Shown here: one piece after another, positions 51,468 through 64,000 of the stretch
Numbering within the stretch: the stretch's first letter is position 1
How the letters are laid out: each line of letters opens with the position of its first letter
From: Waddliaceae bacterium
GTDB taxonomy: Bacteria > Chlamydiota > Chlamydiia > Chlamydiales > GCA-2709385
Length of the DNA: 64,000 bases
Assembly (NCBI GenBank): GCA_002709385.1
Contig: PAQS01000019.1
Span: 186,001-250,000, forward strand
Reading direction: 5' to 3'
Notes under the pieces: model-generated
Database searches by the model: none
Told to the model about the DNA's origin: nothing
The model's input: the letters and a program-made list of their open reading frames with translations, nothing else
Made by a program: the position numbers and the translations under genes

Positions 51468-53123
51468 ATGCTTGTTCGAGGCATATCCTATGCGCTAAAC
51501 AGCAATTACCAGACATCGCGGACGAATTTAGAAGTGTCTATGCGTAGGCTGTCATCTGGTGATAAGTTTGCAAAAACAGGGGTTGAGTTAGGTGGAGAAC
51601 TTTCTGTTTCAGAAAGGTTCAGGCATCGTATTCGTTCAGCTGAAGCTTCTATCAATAGCGTTCAAGCTGGTATGTCTTTTTTGCAAAATGCTAGTGAAAA
51701 CATTGATACAGTCTATCAGATTTTAAATCGTATGCAGGAAATTGCGGCGGCAACAACTGATCCGATGATTACTGCTGATGATCGTGATGTTTTTAATGAA
51801 GAGTTTCAGTTGCTCAAAGCTGAAATCCCAGAGATTTCACGACAGGCTCAATTTTTTGGGAAACAAACGGTAGGAAGAGATACGATTGTTTCCTATGATG
51901 CGAATACAAAAAAATTACGTTTTTGGCAGCCAACAGGTGATGATCCTCAAGAGATTAGTAGAAAATTCGATTCGGATGCTACAGATGTAGAGCAGTCTAC
52001 GATTGGTTTTGATCCATCCGAAGATTTTAGTATGAGTCGAGATGGGAAAAGTTTGTTCTTTCTTGGGAATGAACCTGGAGATGGAGCCGGGGTTCTCCGT
52101 TTGAAGCGTTATGATATTGATACGCAAATGGTGACAACAAGTTCCGACTTGTACGCAACAGGTGATAAGTTATTTGTTCAGGAAGATGGACAATTATATG
52201 TGAACGGCAGTGGGACTCTTTATGATATTGATGAAGGGGGGTTAAGTCGAACTGCAACAGCTATTACTGACATGACAGCAGATACTGAGTTTACCATCTA
52301 TAACGATGCAGTTAAATACTATCGTAGTAGTGACAACCGAATTGTCAGTTATGATTTGAATACAGCAACAACGACGCAACTTACAGCTCCAATTACTTTT
52401 GCATCAGGAGGTGTCGATCATTCTTTTTCAGGATCGGGACGGTTTATTGCTGACGAAAGTGTTGCGGGTACTATTCGTGTGATTGATACCAGCACAGGTA
52501 ATACAGCTACTTATAATGTAGGTGCAGGAACAGCTCTTAACAATTTAAAATTCAATGAAGATGGTGATCGCATTTACTTTATTGATCAGGATGGAGCTTC
52601 TGTTCATTACATTAATGTTGGCGTTGATAGAGATGATAATATTTCTCTTACTGCAGGAGCTAAAGTTATTCAGGGAACAAATTCAAGTTCCTTTAATGGT
52701 TTAGATCTTGGAGGAAGCAATTATGGATCATCTGTAAGTTTTGTACTAAGTCAGGATAGTGTATCCGTTCTTAGTTATGAAGCGGCTGATTTGAGTTTGT
52801 ATGCTTTGGGGCTTTCTGATACGAGAGTCGATACAATTGCTAATGCAGAGACAGCTCTCAGTGATTTAAAAGAGGCTTTAAATAGAACGAATGCTGAAAG
52901 AGCAAAAATTTCAGCAATGGCAAGTCGTTTTGAGCATGTCATGAATAGTCACCGAAACTATATTGCCGATTTAACAAACGCTGAGTCTCAGATACGCGAT
53001 GTCGATTTAGCTAAAGAGACAGGATATTTTAGTGCAATGCAGGTGCAGAACCAGAGTGCAACAGCAATGTTAGCTCAGTTTAACAATTTATCAAAAAATG
53101 TAATGGTTCTATTGAATAGTTAG
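51468..53123 (+). CDS. Divergent flagellin with propeller-like insert
   Basis: A 551-residue flagellin-family protein. Residues 1-135 are the D0/D1 helices (NSNYQTSRTNLEVSMRRLSSG, then FLQNASENIDTVYQILNRMQEIA), and about 455-551 are the matching C-terminal helices (AESQIRDVDLAKETGYFSAMQVQNQ). The middle ~300 residues repeat short strands with SRDGKSLFFLG, NEDGDRIYFIDQ and GSGRFIADE turns, as in TolB/WD-like beta-propellers. N- and C-termini are more divergent than in the two flagellins at 59591-63482. The next gene follows nine bases later, so the two form an operon. No classical sigma-28 promoter was found upstream. Confidence 0.85.
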   Translation: MLVRGISYALNSNYQTSRTNLEVSMRRLSSGDKFAKTGVELGGELSVSERFRHRIRSAEASINSVQAGMSFLQNASENIDTVYQILNRMQEIAAATTDPMITADDRDVFNEEFQLLKAEIPEISRQAQFFGKQTVGRDTIVSYDANTKKLRFWQPTGDDPQEISRKFDSDATDVEQSTIGFDPSEDFSMSRDGKSLFFLGNEPGDGAGVLRLKRYDIDTQMVTTSSDLYATGDKLFVQEDGQLYVNGSGTLYDIDEGGLSRTATAITDMTADTEFTIYNDAVKYYRSSDNRIVSYDLNTATTTQLTAPITFASGGVDHSFSGSGRFIADESVAGTIRVIDTSTGNTATYNVGAGTALNNLKFNEDGDRIYFIDQDGASVHYINVGVDRDDNISLTAGAKVIQGTNSSSFNGLDLGGSNYGSSVSFVLSQDSVSVLSYEAADLSLYALGLSDTRVDTIANAETALSDLKEALNRTNAERAKISAMASRFEHVMNSHRNYIADLTNAESQIRDVDLAKETGYFSAMQVQNQSATAMLAQFNNLSKNVMVLLNS

Positions 53124-59590: not shown

Positions 59591-61420
59591 TTATGGAAGA
59601 AGTCGTAAAATATTTTGAGCGTTTGTGTTGTTTTGCCCAAGCATAGAGATACTTGTTTGAGAAAGTATTTGTGCTCTTGTGAGCTCTGTTGTTTCCTTAG
59701 CAATATCAACATCACGTAGTCGGCTTTCAGCTTGAGCTAGGTTATCTCTGAACCCAGTGTTTGCTGAGTGAGTAAAGCTTAGACGGCTCACTTGAGATCC
59801 TATGATAGCGCGTTGATTTGCAACCATATCAATAGCTCCAGAAATGGACTTGATTGCTGCTTGAGCGTTATCTTCATTTAATACATCAAGAGAGCTAATC
59901 CCTAACTTTACAACACGTACATCTGCTAATTCGAAATCAACATCCATACCTGCATCAGCACCAACTTGGAATTCATAGCGACTTGCTGGGGTTCCACCAC
60001 CAACAGAAAGCCCCATGTTTCTAGCAGCCATACCAGAATTATACGCACCTAGGTGACCTGCATTATCATTGCGAATCACTTCTGTATCGTACAGTTCAGG
60101 TTTACCGTCTGAAGCCAAACGAATGCTTGCTCGTTTGATTGCGTTTTCATCGCTTGTATTACCTGTATCGGTCCAAAATAAATTATTGTTTCCGTCAAAA
60201 CCTAGAGCTGCAACCGAGTTGGTTCGGCTTCCCATAGACTGTGTGATATATTCACCAGAAGGTATGTGAATAATTTTAACATTACCCACAGTGCCATTTT
60301 CATCTTCAAAAGCCATGTACTGACCATCTTGAGAAATGGCATAGGTTTCGCCTTTATTAAGACCAAAAGTGGTGCTAATATCGTTTAAAAGAATTTCTTT
60401 GCTTGTTGTGTCGTAAATACTCTGCTTTACTAAGCGGTGTGGAGCAGTACCTGTACTACGCTCTATGTAATAGATGTAGTCATCATGTACAGCAAAGTTA
60501 GAGAAGCTAGATGCTAAAGTAACACCACCGGCCCATTTATTTGAAGCGCCAGTACCACCATCATCTAATGTGAAGGCATCTACATCTAATAAACGAACTC
60601 TAAACTGTTTATCATCTGTAGTAGCTGCTGTAGAAGGTTCAGAAACCCACACGCGACCTTGGTTATCCATAACTAAACGAGCTTGGTTGGTAGCGGAAGT
60701 ACCTCCAGCTGAATCCATAGCTAGTGTTGTAAGTTGATTACTTTCTATATCCAGTTTCATCAGAGTTTTCTGTGCAGAAAGACTGTCTACACTTTTTTGA
60801 GCTACGTAGATCAGATTTTTTCCATCGTCAGTGAACATGAAGTCACCAACAGACCCATTTGCTGCCGAGCTCTCAAAAGCGTATTTAATGCCGTTTGCTG
60901 CAGCATTTCCATCGCGGAAATTGATGCCTACATCATGGATTTCACTACCATCAGCTTGTGAATAGGTAATTTTGTGATTTAGGTTATCGTATACAGCAAC
61001 AGCTGTTCTTCCATTCACTGATAGTTTGTTGTATTTACCAGCTTCAGATATACGAGCTACTTCATTTTTTAATTGTTGGAATTCCAAGTCGAGGTTTTTA
61101 CGATCCCCAGTGCTTTTTGAACCATCTGCTGAAGATACAGCAAGTTCACTCATTCTATCTAGAATGTTATGTACTTCTTGTAACCAACGGTCTGTTGATT
61201 GCATTAAGTTGATTGCGTTTTGAATGACACCGCTAGCAGCTTCTGAATTGCGGATTTGAGCTCTGAATCGCTCAGAAATACCTAGATCAGCAGGAGCATC
61301 TCCTGGGCTTGTCATTTTTTGTCCTGAAGAAAGACGACTCATAGCGTTTTGTAGGCGACTATTTTGATCACCATAGTTGCTAATGAACGTTTTATATGTT
61401 GCATTATTGGCAATGATCAT
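59591..61420 (-). CDS. Flagellin 2 with propeller-like insert
   Basis: A 609-residue flagellin. D0/D1 helices at residues 1-140 (NATYKTFISNYGDQNSRLQNAMSRLSSGQ, then INLMQSTDRWLQEVHNILDRMSELAVSSADGS) and at about 515-609 (MVANQRAIIGSQVSRL, AESRLRDVDIAKETTELTRAQILSQ) match classical flagellin. The middle ~360 residues carry repeated TDDGKNLIYVAQK, SQDGQYMAFED and GNNNLFWTDT strands like beta-propeller blades. It is a close tandem paralogue of flagellin 3. A TCCGATAC element lies about 90 bases upstream. Confidence 0.93.
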   Translation of the reverse strand: MIIANNATYKTFISNYGDQNSRLQNAMSRLSSGQKMTSPGDAPADLGISERFRAQIRNSEAASGVIQNAINLMQSTDRWLQEVHNILDRMSELAVSSADGSKSTGDRKNLDLEFQQLKNEVARISEAGKYNKLSVNGRTAVAVYDNLNHKITYSQADGSEIHDVGINFRDGNAAANGIKYAFESSAANGSVGDFMFTDDGKNLIYVAQKSVDSLSAQKTLMKLDIESNQLTTLAMDSAGGTSATNQARLVMDNQGRVWVSEPSTAATTDDKQFRVRLLDVDAFTLDDGGTGASNKWAGGVTLASSFSNFAVHDDYIYYIERSTGTAPHRLVKQSIYDTTSKEILLNDISTTFGLNKGETYAISQDGQYMAFEDENGTVGNVKIIHIPSGEYITQSMGSRTNSVAALGFDGNNNLFWTDTGNTSDENAIKRASIRLASDGKPELYDTEVIRNDNAGHLGAYNSGMAARNMGLSVGGGTPASRYEFQVGADAGMDVDFELADVRVVKLGISSLDVLNEDNAQAAIKSISGAIDMVANQRAIIGSQVSRLSFTHSANTGFRDNLAQAESRLRDVDIAKETTELTRAQILSQTSISMLGQNNTNAQNILRLLP

Positions 61421-61508
61421 GGCTTTTTTACCACTTGGTTAAAGTTAATCGATGTTTTGAAACTCTCACTTCTGCTGTCCGAACAGAATTGTGATCCTTT
61501 CAAAAGAG

Positions 61509-61516
61509 GTATCGGA
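61509..61516 (-). promoter_or_regulatory. Sigma-28-like -10 element upstream of flagellin 2
   Basis: The minus strand reads TCCGATAC, which matches 6 of 8 bases of GCCGATAA. The -35 side is poor. The same CCGATA core lies upstream of flagellin 3. Confidence 0.3.
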
Positions 61517-61565
61517 AAGAAAGAGTGAGTGGATTAGAAAAAAAATGAAAAAAAATAATAAAAAA

Positions 61566-61622
61566 AGCCCTCAAAAGTATCTGTGAGGGCTAAAATAAAA
61601 AGGACCAATACATTTGTATTGG
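61566..61622 (-). terminator. Tandem hairpins, terminator of flagellin 3
   Basis: In minus order the first hairpin is CCAATAC/GTATTGG (61605-61622), the second AGCCCTCA/TGAGGGCT (61566-61591). The second is followed by a long T-rich tract, so it is the likely terminator after the flagellin 3 stop at 61656. Confidence 0.85.
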
Positions 61623-61655
61623 CCCAGTGGTTTCGTGTTATTGTTATTGATAATT

Positions 61656-63482
61656 TTATTGCAAGAGTCTGAGAACGTTTTGCGCGCTACTATTTGCTTG
61701 TGTGAGCATAGATATGCTTACTTGTGATAGAACTTGCGCTTTCGTTAATTCGCTTGTTTCTTTTGCGATATCAACGTCTCGAATCCTGCTTTCAGCTTGT
61801 GATAGATTGTCTTTAAATCCTGTGTTTGCAGAGTGTGTAAATCCAAGTCTACTTACTTGTGAACCGATAACAGCTCTTTGGTTAGCTACCATGTCGATTG
61901 CACCGGCAATTTTTGTGATAGCGGCTTGTGCTGAGTCAATACTTAATACATCTTGATCACTGATTCCAAGACGAGTTAATCGTACATCTGCAAGCACAAA
62001 ATCTACGCTCATATCTTGGTCTGGACCTACTTGAAATTCATATCTTCCAGCAGGACTTCCACCGCCTACAGACAGACCCATATTTTTTGCTGCTTGGGTA
62101 CTATTATATGCTCCAAGATGACCAGCGTTTTCACTGCGCAATGTTTTGATATCAAAAACTTCAGGAACGTCTCCGTTTAGACGGATTTGAGCACGTTTTA
62201 ATGCATTTTCATCCGTTGTCCCTCCCGTATCAGTCCAATAAATACGGTTATTTGCATCAAAATCAAGGGCTGCGATAGAGTTTGCTGCTGTACCTAAAGG
62301 AACAGAAGTAACCTGTCCAGAAGAAATATGAACAACTTTTAATGTTCCTGCAGTTCCGTTTTCATCTTCAAAAGCTAAGTATTGACCATCTGAACTAATG
62401 GCGTAAGTTTCACCTTTATTTAGACCAAAGTTTACACTTAAGTCATCCATCAAGGTTTGCTTATTTGTTGTGTCGTTGATGTGTTGTTTTACCAAACGAT
62501 GTGGGCTTGTACCTGTACTGCGTTCGATGTAATAAATATAGTCATCATGAACAGCAAATTCAGAGAAGCTTGAAGCTGTGGTTACGCCACCGGACCAGTT
62601 GTTTGTTGCTCCAGTACCACCATCGTCTAAAGTGAATGAATCCATATCAATCATACGAACTCTAAACTGATTATTAGCTCCTCCTCCCGCTGTAGATGGC
62701 TCGGAAACCCAAATTCTTCCTTTGTTATCCATGACTAATCGAGGTTGTGATGTCGCAGATGTTCCACCAGCGGATTCCATAGCAAGTGTGGTGAGAGTAT
62801 CGCTTTCAATATCTAGTTTCATTAAGGTTTTTTGTGCAGATAAAGAACCGATACTTTTTTGTGCTACATAGATGAGGCTTTTTCCATCTTCACTGAATAG
62901 ATAGTCTCCAACAAATCCGTTGCTTGCAGAGCTTTCAAAAGCGTATTGGATACCATTTTTAGAAGCATTTCCATCCATGAAATTCTGATCGAGCATTGCT
63001 TTCTCAGAGCCATCTGCTTGGCTATAGACAATTCTATGCTTTAGATTGTCATAGACAGCGACTGCAGTTTGTGAATTCACGGATAAGCCGTTGTATTTTC
63101 CTGCTTCTGAAATTCGAGCAACTTCTGTTTTTAATTGTTGAAACTCAAGATCTAAGTTCTTTCGGTCACCAGAGCTTTTAGAACCATCTGCTGCAGATAC
63201 AGCAAGTTCACTCATTCTATTCAATATACTATGAGTTTCTTGTAGCCATCGGTCAGTAGACTGCATCAAGTTGATAGCGTTCTGAATAACGCCGCTAGCG
63301 GCTTCAGAGTTACGAATTTGAGCACGAAATCTTTCTGAGATACCTAAATCAGCTGGAGCTTCTCCAGGTGTAAGTAGACGCTGTCCTGATGAAAGACGAC
63401 TCATAGATGTTTGGAGTCGGCTGTTCTGTCCTGCATAGTTACTAACAAAAGTTTTATAAGTGGCGTTATTGGCGATCAACAT
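61656..63482 (-). CDS. Flagellin 3 with propeller-like insert
   Basis: A 608-residue flagellin, close to flagellin 2 over its whole length (same INLMQSTDRWLQE, SAQKTLMKLDIES, YIYYIERSTGT and SRIRDVDIAKETSEL landmarks). N- and C-terminal helices are best conserved, the middle strands less so. GGAGGAAAG precedes the ATG. Its promoter region, with a C tract, is described separately. Tandem order suggests duplication; the two may form one filament or alternate. Confidence 0.94.
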   Translation of the reverse strand: MLIANNATYKTFVSNYAGQNSRLQTSMSRLSSGQRLLTPGEAPADLGISERFRAQIRNSEAASGVIQNAINLMQSTDRWLQETHSILNRMSELAVSAADGSKSSGDRKNLDLEFQQLKTEVARISEAGKYNGLSVNSQTAVAVYDNLKHRIVYSQADGSEKAMLDQNFMDGNASKNGIQYAFESSASNGFVGDYLFSEDGKSLIYVAQKSIGSLSAQKTLMKLDIESDTLTTLAMESAGGTSATSQPRLVMDNKGRIWVSEPSTAGGGANNQFRVRMIDMDSFTLDDGGTGATNNWSGGVTTASSFSEFAVHDDYIYYIERSTGTSPHRLVKQHINDTTNKQTLMDDLSVNFGLNKGETYAISSDGQYLAFEDENGTAGTLKVVHISSGQVTSVPLGTAANSIAALDFDANNRIYWTDTGGTTDENALKRAQIRLNGDVPEVFDIKTLRSENAGHLGAYNSTQAAKNMGLSVGGGSPAGRYEFQVGPDQDMSVDFVLADVRLTRLGISDQDVLSIDSAQAAITKIAGAIDMVANQRAVIGSQVSRLGFTHSANTGFKDNLSQAESRIRDVDIAKETSELTKAQVLSQVSISMLTQANSSAQNVLRLLQ

Positions 63483-63628
63483 TTTCTTTCCTCCGTGAAT
63501 GTTGAATTATTTAGAAGCGATACGCTCTAGCACTGCGTTCTTACTTCTTTTCCATCTCCGATCCTTGGATGATGGTTGTTGGCCACTGTGAGGTTCTTGT
63601 CCGTAAGTCCTCAATCGAGCCAACATGG

Positions 63629-63656
63629 ATATCGGAATGGGGGGGGGGGAACTTAA
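63629..63656 (-). promoter_or_regulatory. Sigma-28-like promoter with C tract in the spacer (flagellin 3)
   Basis: The minus strand reads TTAAGTTC at 63656-63649 and TCCGATAT at 63636-63629, 12 bases apart; consensus is TAAAGTTT-N11-GCCGATAA. Six of eight bases match in each box. The 12-base spacer is ten C, then A and T. Confidence 0.5.
63639..63649. repeat. Homopolymeric G11/C11 tract
   Basis: Eleven consecutive G on the plus strand in otherwise AT-rich DNA. Such tracts in promoter spacers are known phase-variation switches through slipped-strand mispairing. Confidence 0.9.
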
Positions 63657-63767
63657 TGATTTTTTTTAAAAAGATAAAAAAATGAAAATTTTTATACTTA
63701 AGCTATTAATATTAAGTAATAAATAGTTTTAAAAACTTAAATTTGTTTTTTTTAGATTAAAATAAAG

Positions 63768-63801
63768 AATAAGCCGTAGTAGAAAACTACTACGGCTTAT
63801 T
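63768..63801 (-). terminator. Perfect 15-bp hairpin, terminator of the right-edge gene
   Basis: AATAAGCCGTAGTAG (63768-63782) and its exact inverse (63787-63801) around AAAA. On the minus strand it follows the stop at 63827-63829 and is succeeded by a T-rich tail. Confidence 0.85.
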
Positions 63802-63826
63802 ACCTAGAGATTTATGAAAAATCTCT

Positions 63827-64000
63827 TTAGGGAGCGAGAACAGGAATAAGTATTTCAGGTGTATTTAGGGAGATTTGTTTAAATACTTTGTCTCTGATGA
63901 TGTATTCGGTTTTGGATTGAACTGTATTATCAGTATAGAAGTATTGAGTATGTCTGCCTTTATCACCTATAAACTCTGTTTCAGCTAATGTTCTTCCATA
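63827..64000 (-). CDS. C-terminal fragment of a hypothetical protein, start beyond window
   Basis: An open minus-strand frame from the right edge to TAA at 63827-63829 gives the last 57 residues of a protein. It is polar, with strands such as FIGDKGRHTQYFYTD and a short hydrophobic ending EILIPVLAP. No flagellin C-terminal signature is present, so it is not a fourth flagellin end. A terminator follows. Too little is visible to assign a family. Confidence 0.6.
   Translation of the reverse strand, partial: YGRTLAETEFIGDKGRHTQYFYTDNTVQSKTEYIIRDKVFKQISLNTPEILIPVLAP

Follow-up and report, generated by a model that had tools for sequence, protein, structure and literature searches.

A C11 tract in the spacer of a putative sigma-28 flagellin promoter in Chlamydiota and its possible role as a slippage switch

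Upstream of flagellin 3 in this Chlamydiota genome, a run of eleven C's fills most of the spacer of what is, on strong sequence evidence, the sigma-28 (FliA) promoter of the gene. We cautiously favor the reading that flagellin 3 is under a homopolymer-slippage switch or rheostat akin to that of Neisseria porA, with the assembled C11 as the putative ON state. The site is real and well placed; the principle is ordinary, and the setting is new. Flagella are very rare in Chlamydiota, as Flagellin_N is found above its cut-off in 3 of 232 genomes, and relatives of flagellin 3 occur in these same three. If true, the proposed switch would therefore mean flagellar phase variation in a phylum that is otherwise almost flagella-free, and would add a case of spacer-tract switching from the sigma-28 class, a promoter type for which our literature search (judged from listings, and covering few subscription papers) found no homopolymer in a flagellin promoter spacer. 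Individual cells would also hedge the composition of their filaments, even though the lineage has relatives that live inside cells.

Architecture of the flagellin 3 promoter

The features of the site and of its surroundings are collected in Table 1, where the window is the whole 64-kb stretch of DNA that was analyzed. Read directly on the minus strand from 63656 to 63629, TTAAGTTC and TCCGATAT lie 12 bases apart upstream of flagellin 3, and ten of the twelve spacer bases are C (63648-63637, C10 followed by AT), exactly as the initial annotation had described them; the plus strand over 63629-63656 is ATATCGGA AT GGGGGGGGGGG AACTTAA. The predicted transcription start, which had been placed about 140 nt 5' of the ATG, also agrees with the distance of 147 nt between the end of the -10 box and the ATG (63482) of flagellin 3. 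In several flagellins of the group, 95-176 nt separate the -10 box from the ATG, a distance that offers space for post-transcriptional control.

Table 1. Features of the flagellin 3 promoter region and of the neighboring flagellin genes (positions in the window).
Feature	Position	Strand	Basis or remark
Flagellin 3, 608 aa	61656..63482	-	Flagellin_N (2.9e-22) and Flagellin_C (4.8e-19)
Flagellin 2, 609 aa (ORF as listed, running to the stop at 59591)	59591..61420	-	75% identical to flagellin 3; own -10 box TCCGATAC, without TNAAG box and without C tract
Terminator-like hairpin that insulates the promoter on its upstream side	63768..63801	-	15-pair stem and T-rich tail
Terminator-like hairpin between flagellin 3 and flagellin 2	61602..61625	-	10-pair stem and T tail
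C11 homopolymer	63639..63649	- (G11 on plus)	Read directly; 10 C's in the promoter spacer and one, the first, at the end of the -35 box
-35 box TTAAGTTC, sigma-28-type promoter	63649..63656	-	TNAAG at N15 from NYCGA, a pair present 8 times in the 22 upstream regions of flagellin-family genes; count not reached in any of 500 shuffles
Spacer, 12 nt (C10 and AT)	63637..63648	-	12 is the commonest spacing of the lineage
-10 box TCCGATAT	63629..63636	-	Same box-pair tests
Predicted leader, about 140 nt, with a GGAGG ribosome-binding site at its end	63483..63622	-	From the distance between the -10 box and the ATG; start site inferred

The pair of boxes recurs among related genes at a nearly constant distance. 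In 22 flagellin-family upstream regions from three genomes, TNAAG/NYCGA pairs are found eight times at N15 (which corresponds to a 12-base spacer in the box definition of the initial annotation) and once at N14, and there are none at the 13 other spacings (N8-13 and N16-22) in the same regions. Shuffled upstream regions gave a mean of 0.23 and a maximum of 3 pairs at N15, with none of 500 reaching 8, although the TNAAG/NYCGA rule was fixed after inspection of the upstream regions and the window's own promoter is one of the eight matches. This count covers 22 of the 24 Flagellin_N genes of the three genomes, the two found only in the Flagellin_N search of 232 genomes being left out; L020 and L023 are one gene and were counted once, as L023, for which the start codon taken is uncertain.

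Flagellin 3 has its two closest relatives in the other flagellin-bearing Chlamydiota genomes (G013 and G014, the window's genome being G000), and both keep TTAAG-N15-TCCGA with quite different spacer bases. In addition, a FliA/WhiG-type sigma factor is present above the cut-off in all three flagellin-bearing genomes (250.8 bits vs 189.6 for the window's genome). Flagellin 3 forms an isolated transcription unit. A sigma-70 promoter for it was rejected, because a scan of 61400-64000 found no sigma-70-like site (shuffles give 7.5), and read-through from upstream is unlikely, because the terminator-like hairpin in front of the promoter intervenes.

Two side observations concern other genes with boxes of this type. 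Five flagellin-family genes in the three genomes (L015, L024, L025, L028, and L030) have a clear CCGATA and no TNAAG at the expected distance, and such genes are perhaps an activator-dependent subclass. Furthermore, the proteins encoded at L061 (G014; 203 aa) and L072 (G013; 214 aa) resemble each other, and both have hydrophobic stretches at the N-terminus. Each gene is preceded by a strict sigma-28-like site whose boxes are 12 nt apart, and these proteins are candidates for uncharacterized members of the sigma-28 regulon; Pfam gave no match for five proteins beside strict sigma-28-like sites, the L061 protein included.

Spacing of the boxes and the ON length

Loose counting of AAGT...CCGATA matches genome-wide is useless by itself, as AAGTN{12,17}CCGATA is not enriched in G000, G013, and G014 (30, 20, and 16 matches, vs 43, 32, and 19 in the reversed control), and the next T and the gene context are needed to separate signal from noise. 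Site contexts were read for 43 of these 66 sites, including all 24 with AAGTT. Of the 24 strict AAGTT...CCGATA sites in the three genomes, nine are intergenic and have an ORF downstream. Seven of these nine have a spacing of 12 and two a spacing of 11, and none has a spacing of 9, 10, 13, or 14. The flagellin-family box pairs are divided in a similar manner, with eight of nine at spacing 12 and one at 11. For Chlamydia pneumoniae, the available part of PMC3333780 gives TNAAG-N15-GCC for the hctB promoter and N14 for tsp, which are spacings of 12 and 11, respectively. As judged from these sequences, a spacing of 12 is normal for such promoters in this lineage, and 11 appears to be tolerated. 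Because 12 is the majority spacing both here and in Chlamydia hctB, the assembled C11 is probably the ON length.

The initial annotation had the opposite polarity, in which C11 would be a low state, below the optimum, the promoter would reach an optimal spacing of 11 by losing one C, and flagellins 2 and 3 would alternate. An optimum of 11 does match the gamma-proteobacterial sigma-28 consensus as given in the available part of PMC3333780 (TNAAG-N14-GCCGATA), and a spacing of 11 occurs in both of the above tallies. However, 12 is the majority in both tallies as well as in Chlamydia hctB, so that the proposed direction is probably backwards, and the gamma-proteobacterial optimum probably does not carry over to this lineage. 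The alternation of the two flagellins has further points against it, which are considered below, and we regard this reading as a whole as improbable.

The C tract, slippage, and drift

The length of the promoter C11 is far beyond chance. It is the only C/G run of at least 9 in the window, and a first-order Markov model derived from the window predicts 0.0013 runs of at least 11 per 64 kb. For the 3.15-Mb genome, the model predicts 1.7, 0.33, and 0.065 C/G runs of at least 9, 10, and 11, respectively, vs 11, 5, and 3 seen.

Other long runs of the same genome are also of interest. At a C13 run (L007 3000-3012; G000:C34:24699-24711), a 254-aa frame ends and another frame is open for at least 688 aa further, as would be expected from slippage or from a miscounted tract; the locus is a candidate for either a coding contingency locus or a tract miscount, and Pfam matched neither of the two pieces around the run. 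A C9 run (L002 3050-3058; G000:C19:86249-86257) marks the start of another gene of surface type: the ORF has RHS repeats and is longer than 1013 aa, and the run ends 3 bases short of its first possible start codon. The second C11 run (L010 3021-3031; G000:C47:50120-50130) is crossed by no ORF of at least 80 aa and lies between ORFs of 597 and 180 aa. Pfam, run on eight genes that either neighbor a long C run or lie upstream of the promoter, gave matches for three, one of which is the RHS-repeat protein. C runs of at least 11 occur in 83 of the 173 genomes of the order searched, and in neither of the flagellated relatives.

The proposed switch would operate by slipped-strand mispairing, which would add C's to the spacer or remove them from it, and the tract is positioned such that each C step changes the promoter spacing. 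The sigma-28 spacings seen span only 11-12, so the gain or loss of a single C should affect the promoter strongly. One C fewer (11 nt) would probably still work, as this spacing occurs at sigma-28-like sites here, and tracts of other lengths, shorter or longer, should weaken the promoter. The outcome would be either reversible ON/OFF switching or a graded contribution of flagellin 3 to the filament, while flagellin 2 and the other flagellins, with their tract-less promoters, would form a constant background. From the sequence, we infer that the promoter is used and that the tract may vary in length, with consequent effects on expression and on the filament. Somewhat more tentatively, the tract may be a poly-C rheostat in the sigma-28 spacer, fully ON at C11, weaker at C10, and OFF at other lengths, which would have arisen in one copy after duplication and would tune the filament cell by cell. 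Slippage of this type is plausible because it is documented for poly-C/G tracts in Chlamydia pmpG and because another tract of this genome breaks a frame. MutS and MutL are present in the window's genome, and slippage rates would therefore be lower.

A serious rival to the switch is drift within a tolerant spacer, in which the sigma-28 promoter works and the C run is incidental, a pyrimidine-rich spacer having drifted to a homopolymer while selection holds the length at 12 and the rare slipped variants are removed instead of being used. The spacers of the 12 other promoters are indeed pyrimidine at 102 of 144 positions (71%, vs a background of 0.48 for the upstream regions as a whole), the length equals the norm of the lineage, mismatch repair is present, and the spacers of the flagellin 3 relatives in G013 and G014 have no C tract. 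The tract is thus not kept in the gene's relatives, and its absence from both flagellated relatives means that it is not a conserved switch. However, chance falls far short of explaining a C11 in intergenic DNA that is AT-rich, and if constant spacing were all that is selected, other bases should interrupt the run, as they do in every other flagellin-family promoter here, where the longest C run in the 21 other upstream regions is 4. Drift is possible on these grounds, although we find it somewhat doubtful as the explanation of the run. A wider family of tract-bearing sigma-28 spacers was also considered and put down to chance: a gapped AAGT-C7-CGATA pattern occurs in 4 of 232 genomes, the other three having C7 with imperfect -10 boxes, and in 5 genomes in the reversed control. 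With C8 or longer and CCGATA, this search retrieved the window's site alone.

Homopolymer runs of such length are error-prone, and a polymerase or assembly error of one base or more in the assembled tract would make the ON/OFF state unreadable from it. The break of an ORF at the C13 run of the same genome is in keeping with such an error. However, the assembled length of the promoter tract yields exactly the conserved spacing, and a fraction of 0.90 of the window lies in ORFs of 100 aa or longer, so that indel noise is low, and a wrong length is very unlikely.

The principle of the proposed switch has considerable similarities to known systems, but there are also differences. The porA and opc promoters of Neisseria meningitidis are of the sigma-70 type and belong to outer-membrane proteins, unlike the sigma-28 flagellin promoter described here. 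According to the titles cited in PMC5084427, the homopolymer of porA lies between -35 and -10 (van der Ende 1995), and opc has a promoter poly-C (Sarkari 1994). Like these, as far as the titles tell, flagellin 3 codes for a surface protein and has a G/C homopolymer in its promoter, and in porA the -35/-10 spacing sets expression; variation has been demonstrated there, whereas at flagellin 3 it is proposed from the sequence. The unusually long G/C homopolymer between -35 and -10 that is a feature of the porA-type class is found at flagellin 3, which may be likened by its architecture to this phase-variable class, the class itself being defined by length variation and length-dependent expression. 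In the available part of PMC1891110, the Bordetella fim2, fim3, and fimX genes likewise have a promoter poly-C in front of a filament subunit gene, the length of which affects transcription, and their subunits can replace each other; the run there, however, sets the distance from an activator site to the -10 box, whereas here it lies between two sigma-28 boxes. Chlamydia pmpG, of the same phylum, illustrates G/C homopolymers on surface protein genes with slippage inferred or shown by strain comparison, but these are coding-sequence tracts acting by frameshift (PMC6740158 and PMC4488443, in the parts available). Chlamydia hctB shares the 12-nt spacing and is a late histone-like gene, with no homopolymer reported in the available part of PMC3333780.

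Flagellins 2 and 3 and their relatives

The statement of the initial annotation that flagellin 2 lacks the tract is borne out, as its spacer is TCACTCTTTCTT; it has TAATCCAC at the expected TNAAG position and keeps the -10 box. Flagellin 3 is 47% and 39-40% identical to its relatives in G013/G014, and flagellins 2 and 3 appear to have arisen by tandem duplication within this lineage. After duplication, flagellin 3 would have kept both boxes and gained the tract with unchanged spacing, and flagellin 2 would have kept the -10 box, with the TNAAG box missing and no tract. The two proteins share 86% identity in the N-terminal 140 residues, 71% in the middle, and 76% in the C-terminal part; because the middle region is the least alike, exchanging one subunit for the other would change the variable part more than the rest.

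The idea that flagellins 2 and 3 are alternating filament types would require a link from gene to gene, and no coupling was found. A terminator-like hairpin stands between the two genes, their -10 boxes are separate, and the window's ORF listing has no other sizeable same-strand ORF between or beside them that could serve as a coupling gene. Because of the hairpin and of flagellin 2's own -10 box, one variable flagellin against a constant background is the better picture, and the two-filament alternation is unsupported. What stands of the earlier interpretation is a sigma-28-type promoter with a C-filled spacer and a plausible slippage switch; the off-optimum spacing and the alternation do not. 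In Salmonella, H1/H2 flagellar phase variation is a stochastic flagellin change brought about by DNA inversion and a coupled repressor. The proposed behavior of flagellin 3 would be alike in being stochastic, but no inversion or coupled repressor of that kind is seen at flagellins 2 and 3.

The window's genome is the sole member of its family among the 232 Chlamydiota genomes, so that the family offers no closer relatives for a comparison of tract length; among named genomes, a single-protein query gave none, and an alignment query gave two distant ones only. Flagellar genes of environmental chlamydiae are already in print (PMC8242063 and PMC9816063, in the parts available). The window's genome has nine flagellin-family genes above the Flagellin_N cut-off and one just below it.

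Finally, the flagellins at 51468-53123, 59591-61420, and 61656-63482 are unusual in the length of their middle region, about 360 aa. The structure prediction for flagellin 3 has a mean pLDDT of 44, too poor for a fold search, and this poor model has only strands in the long middle region. Flagellin 1 has a weak beta-propeller match in Pfam (4e-5, below the family's cut-off), and the flagellins with the long middle region are possibly propeller-bearing.
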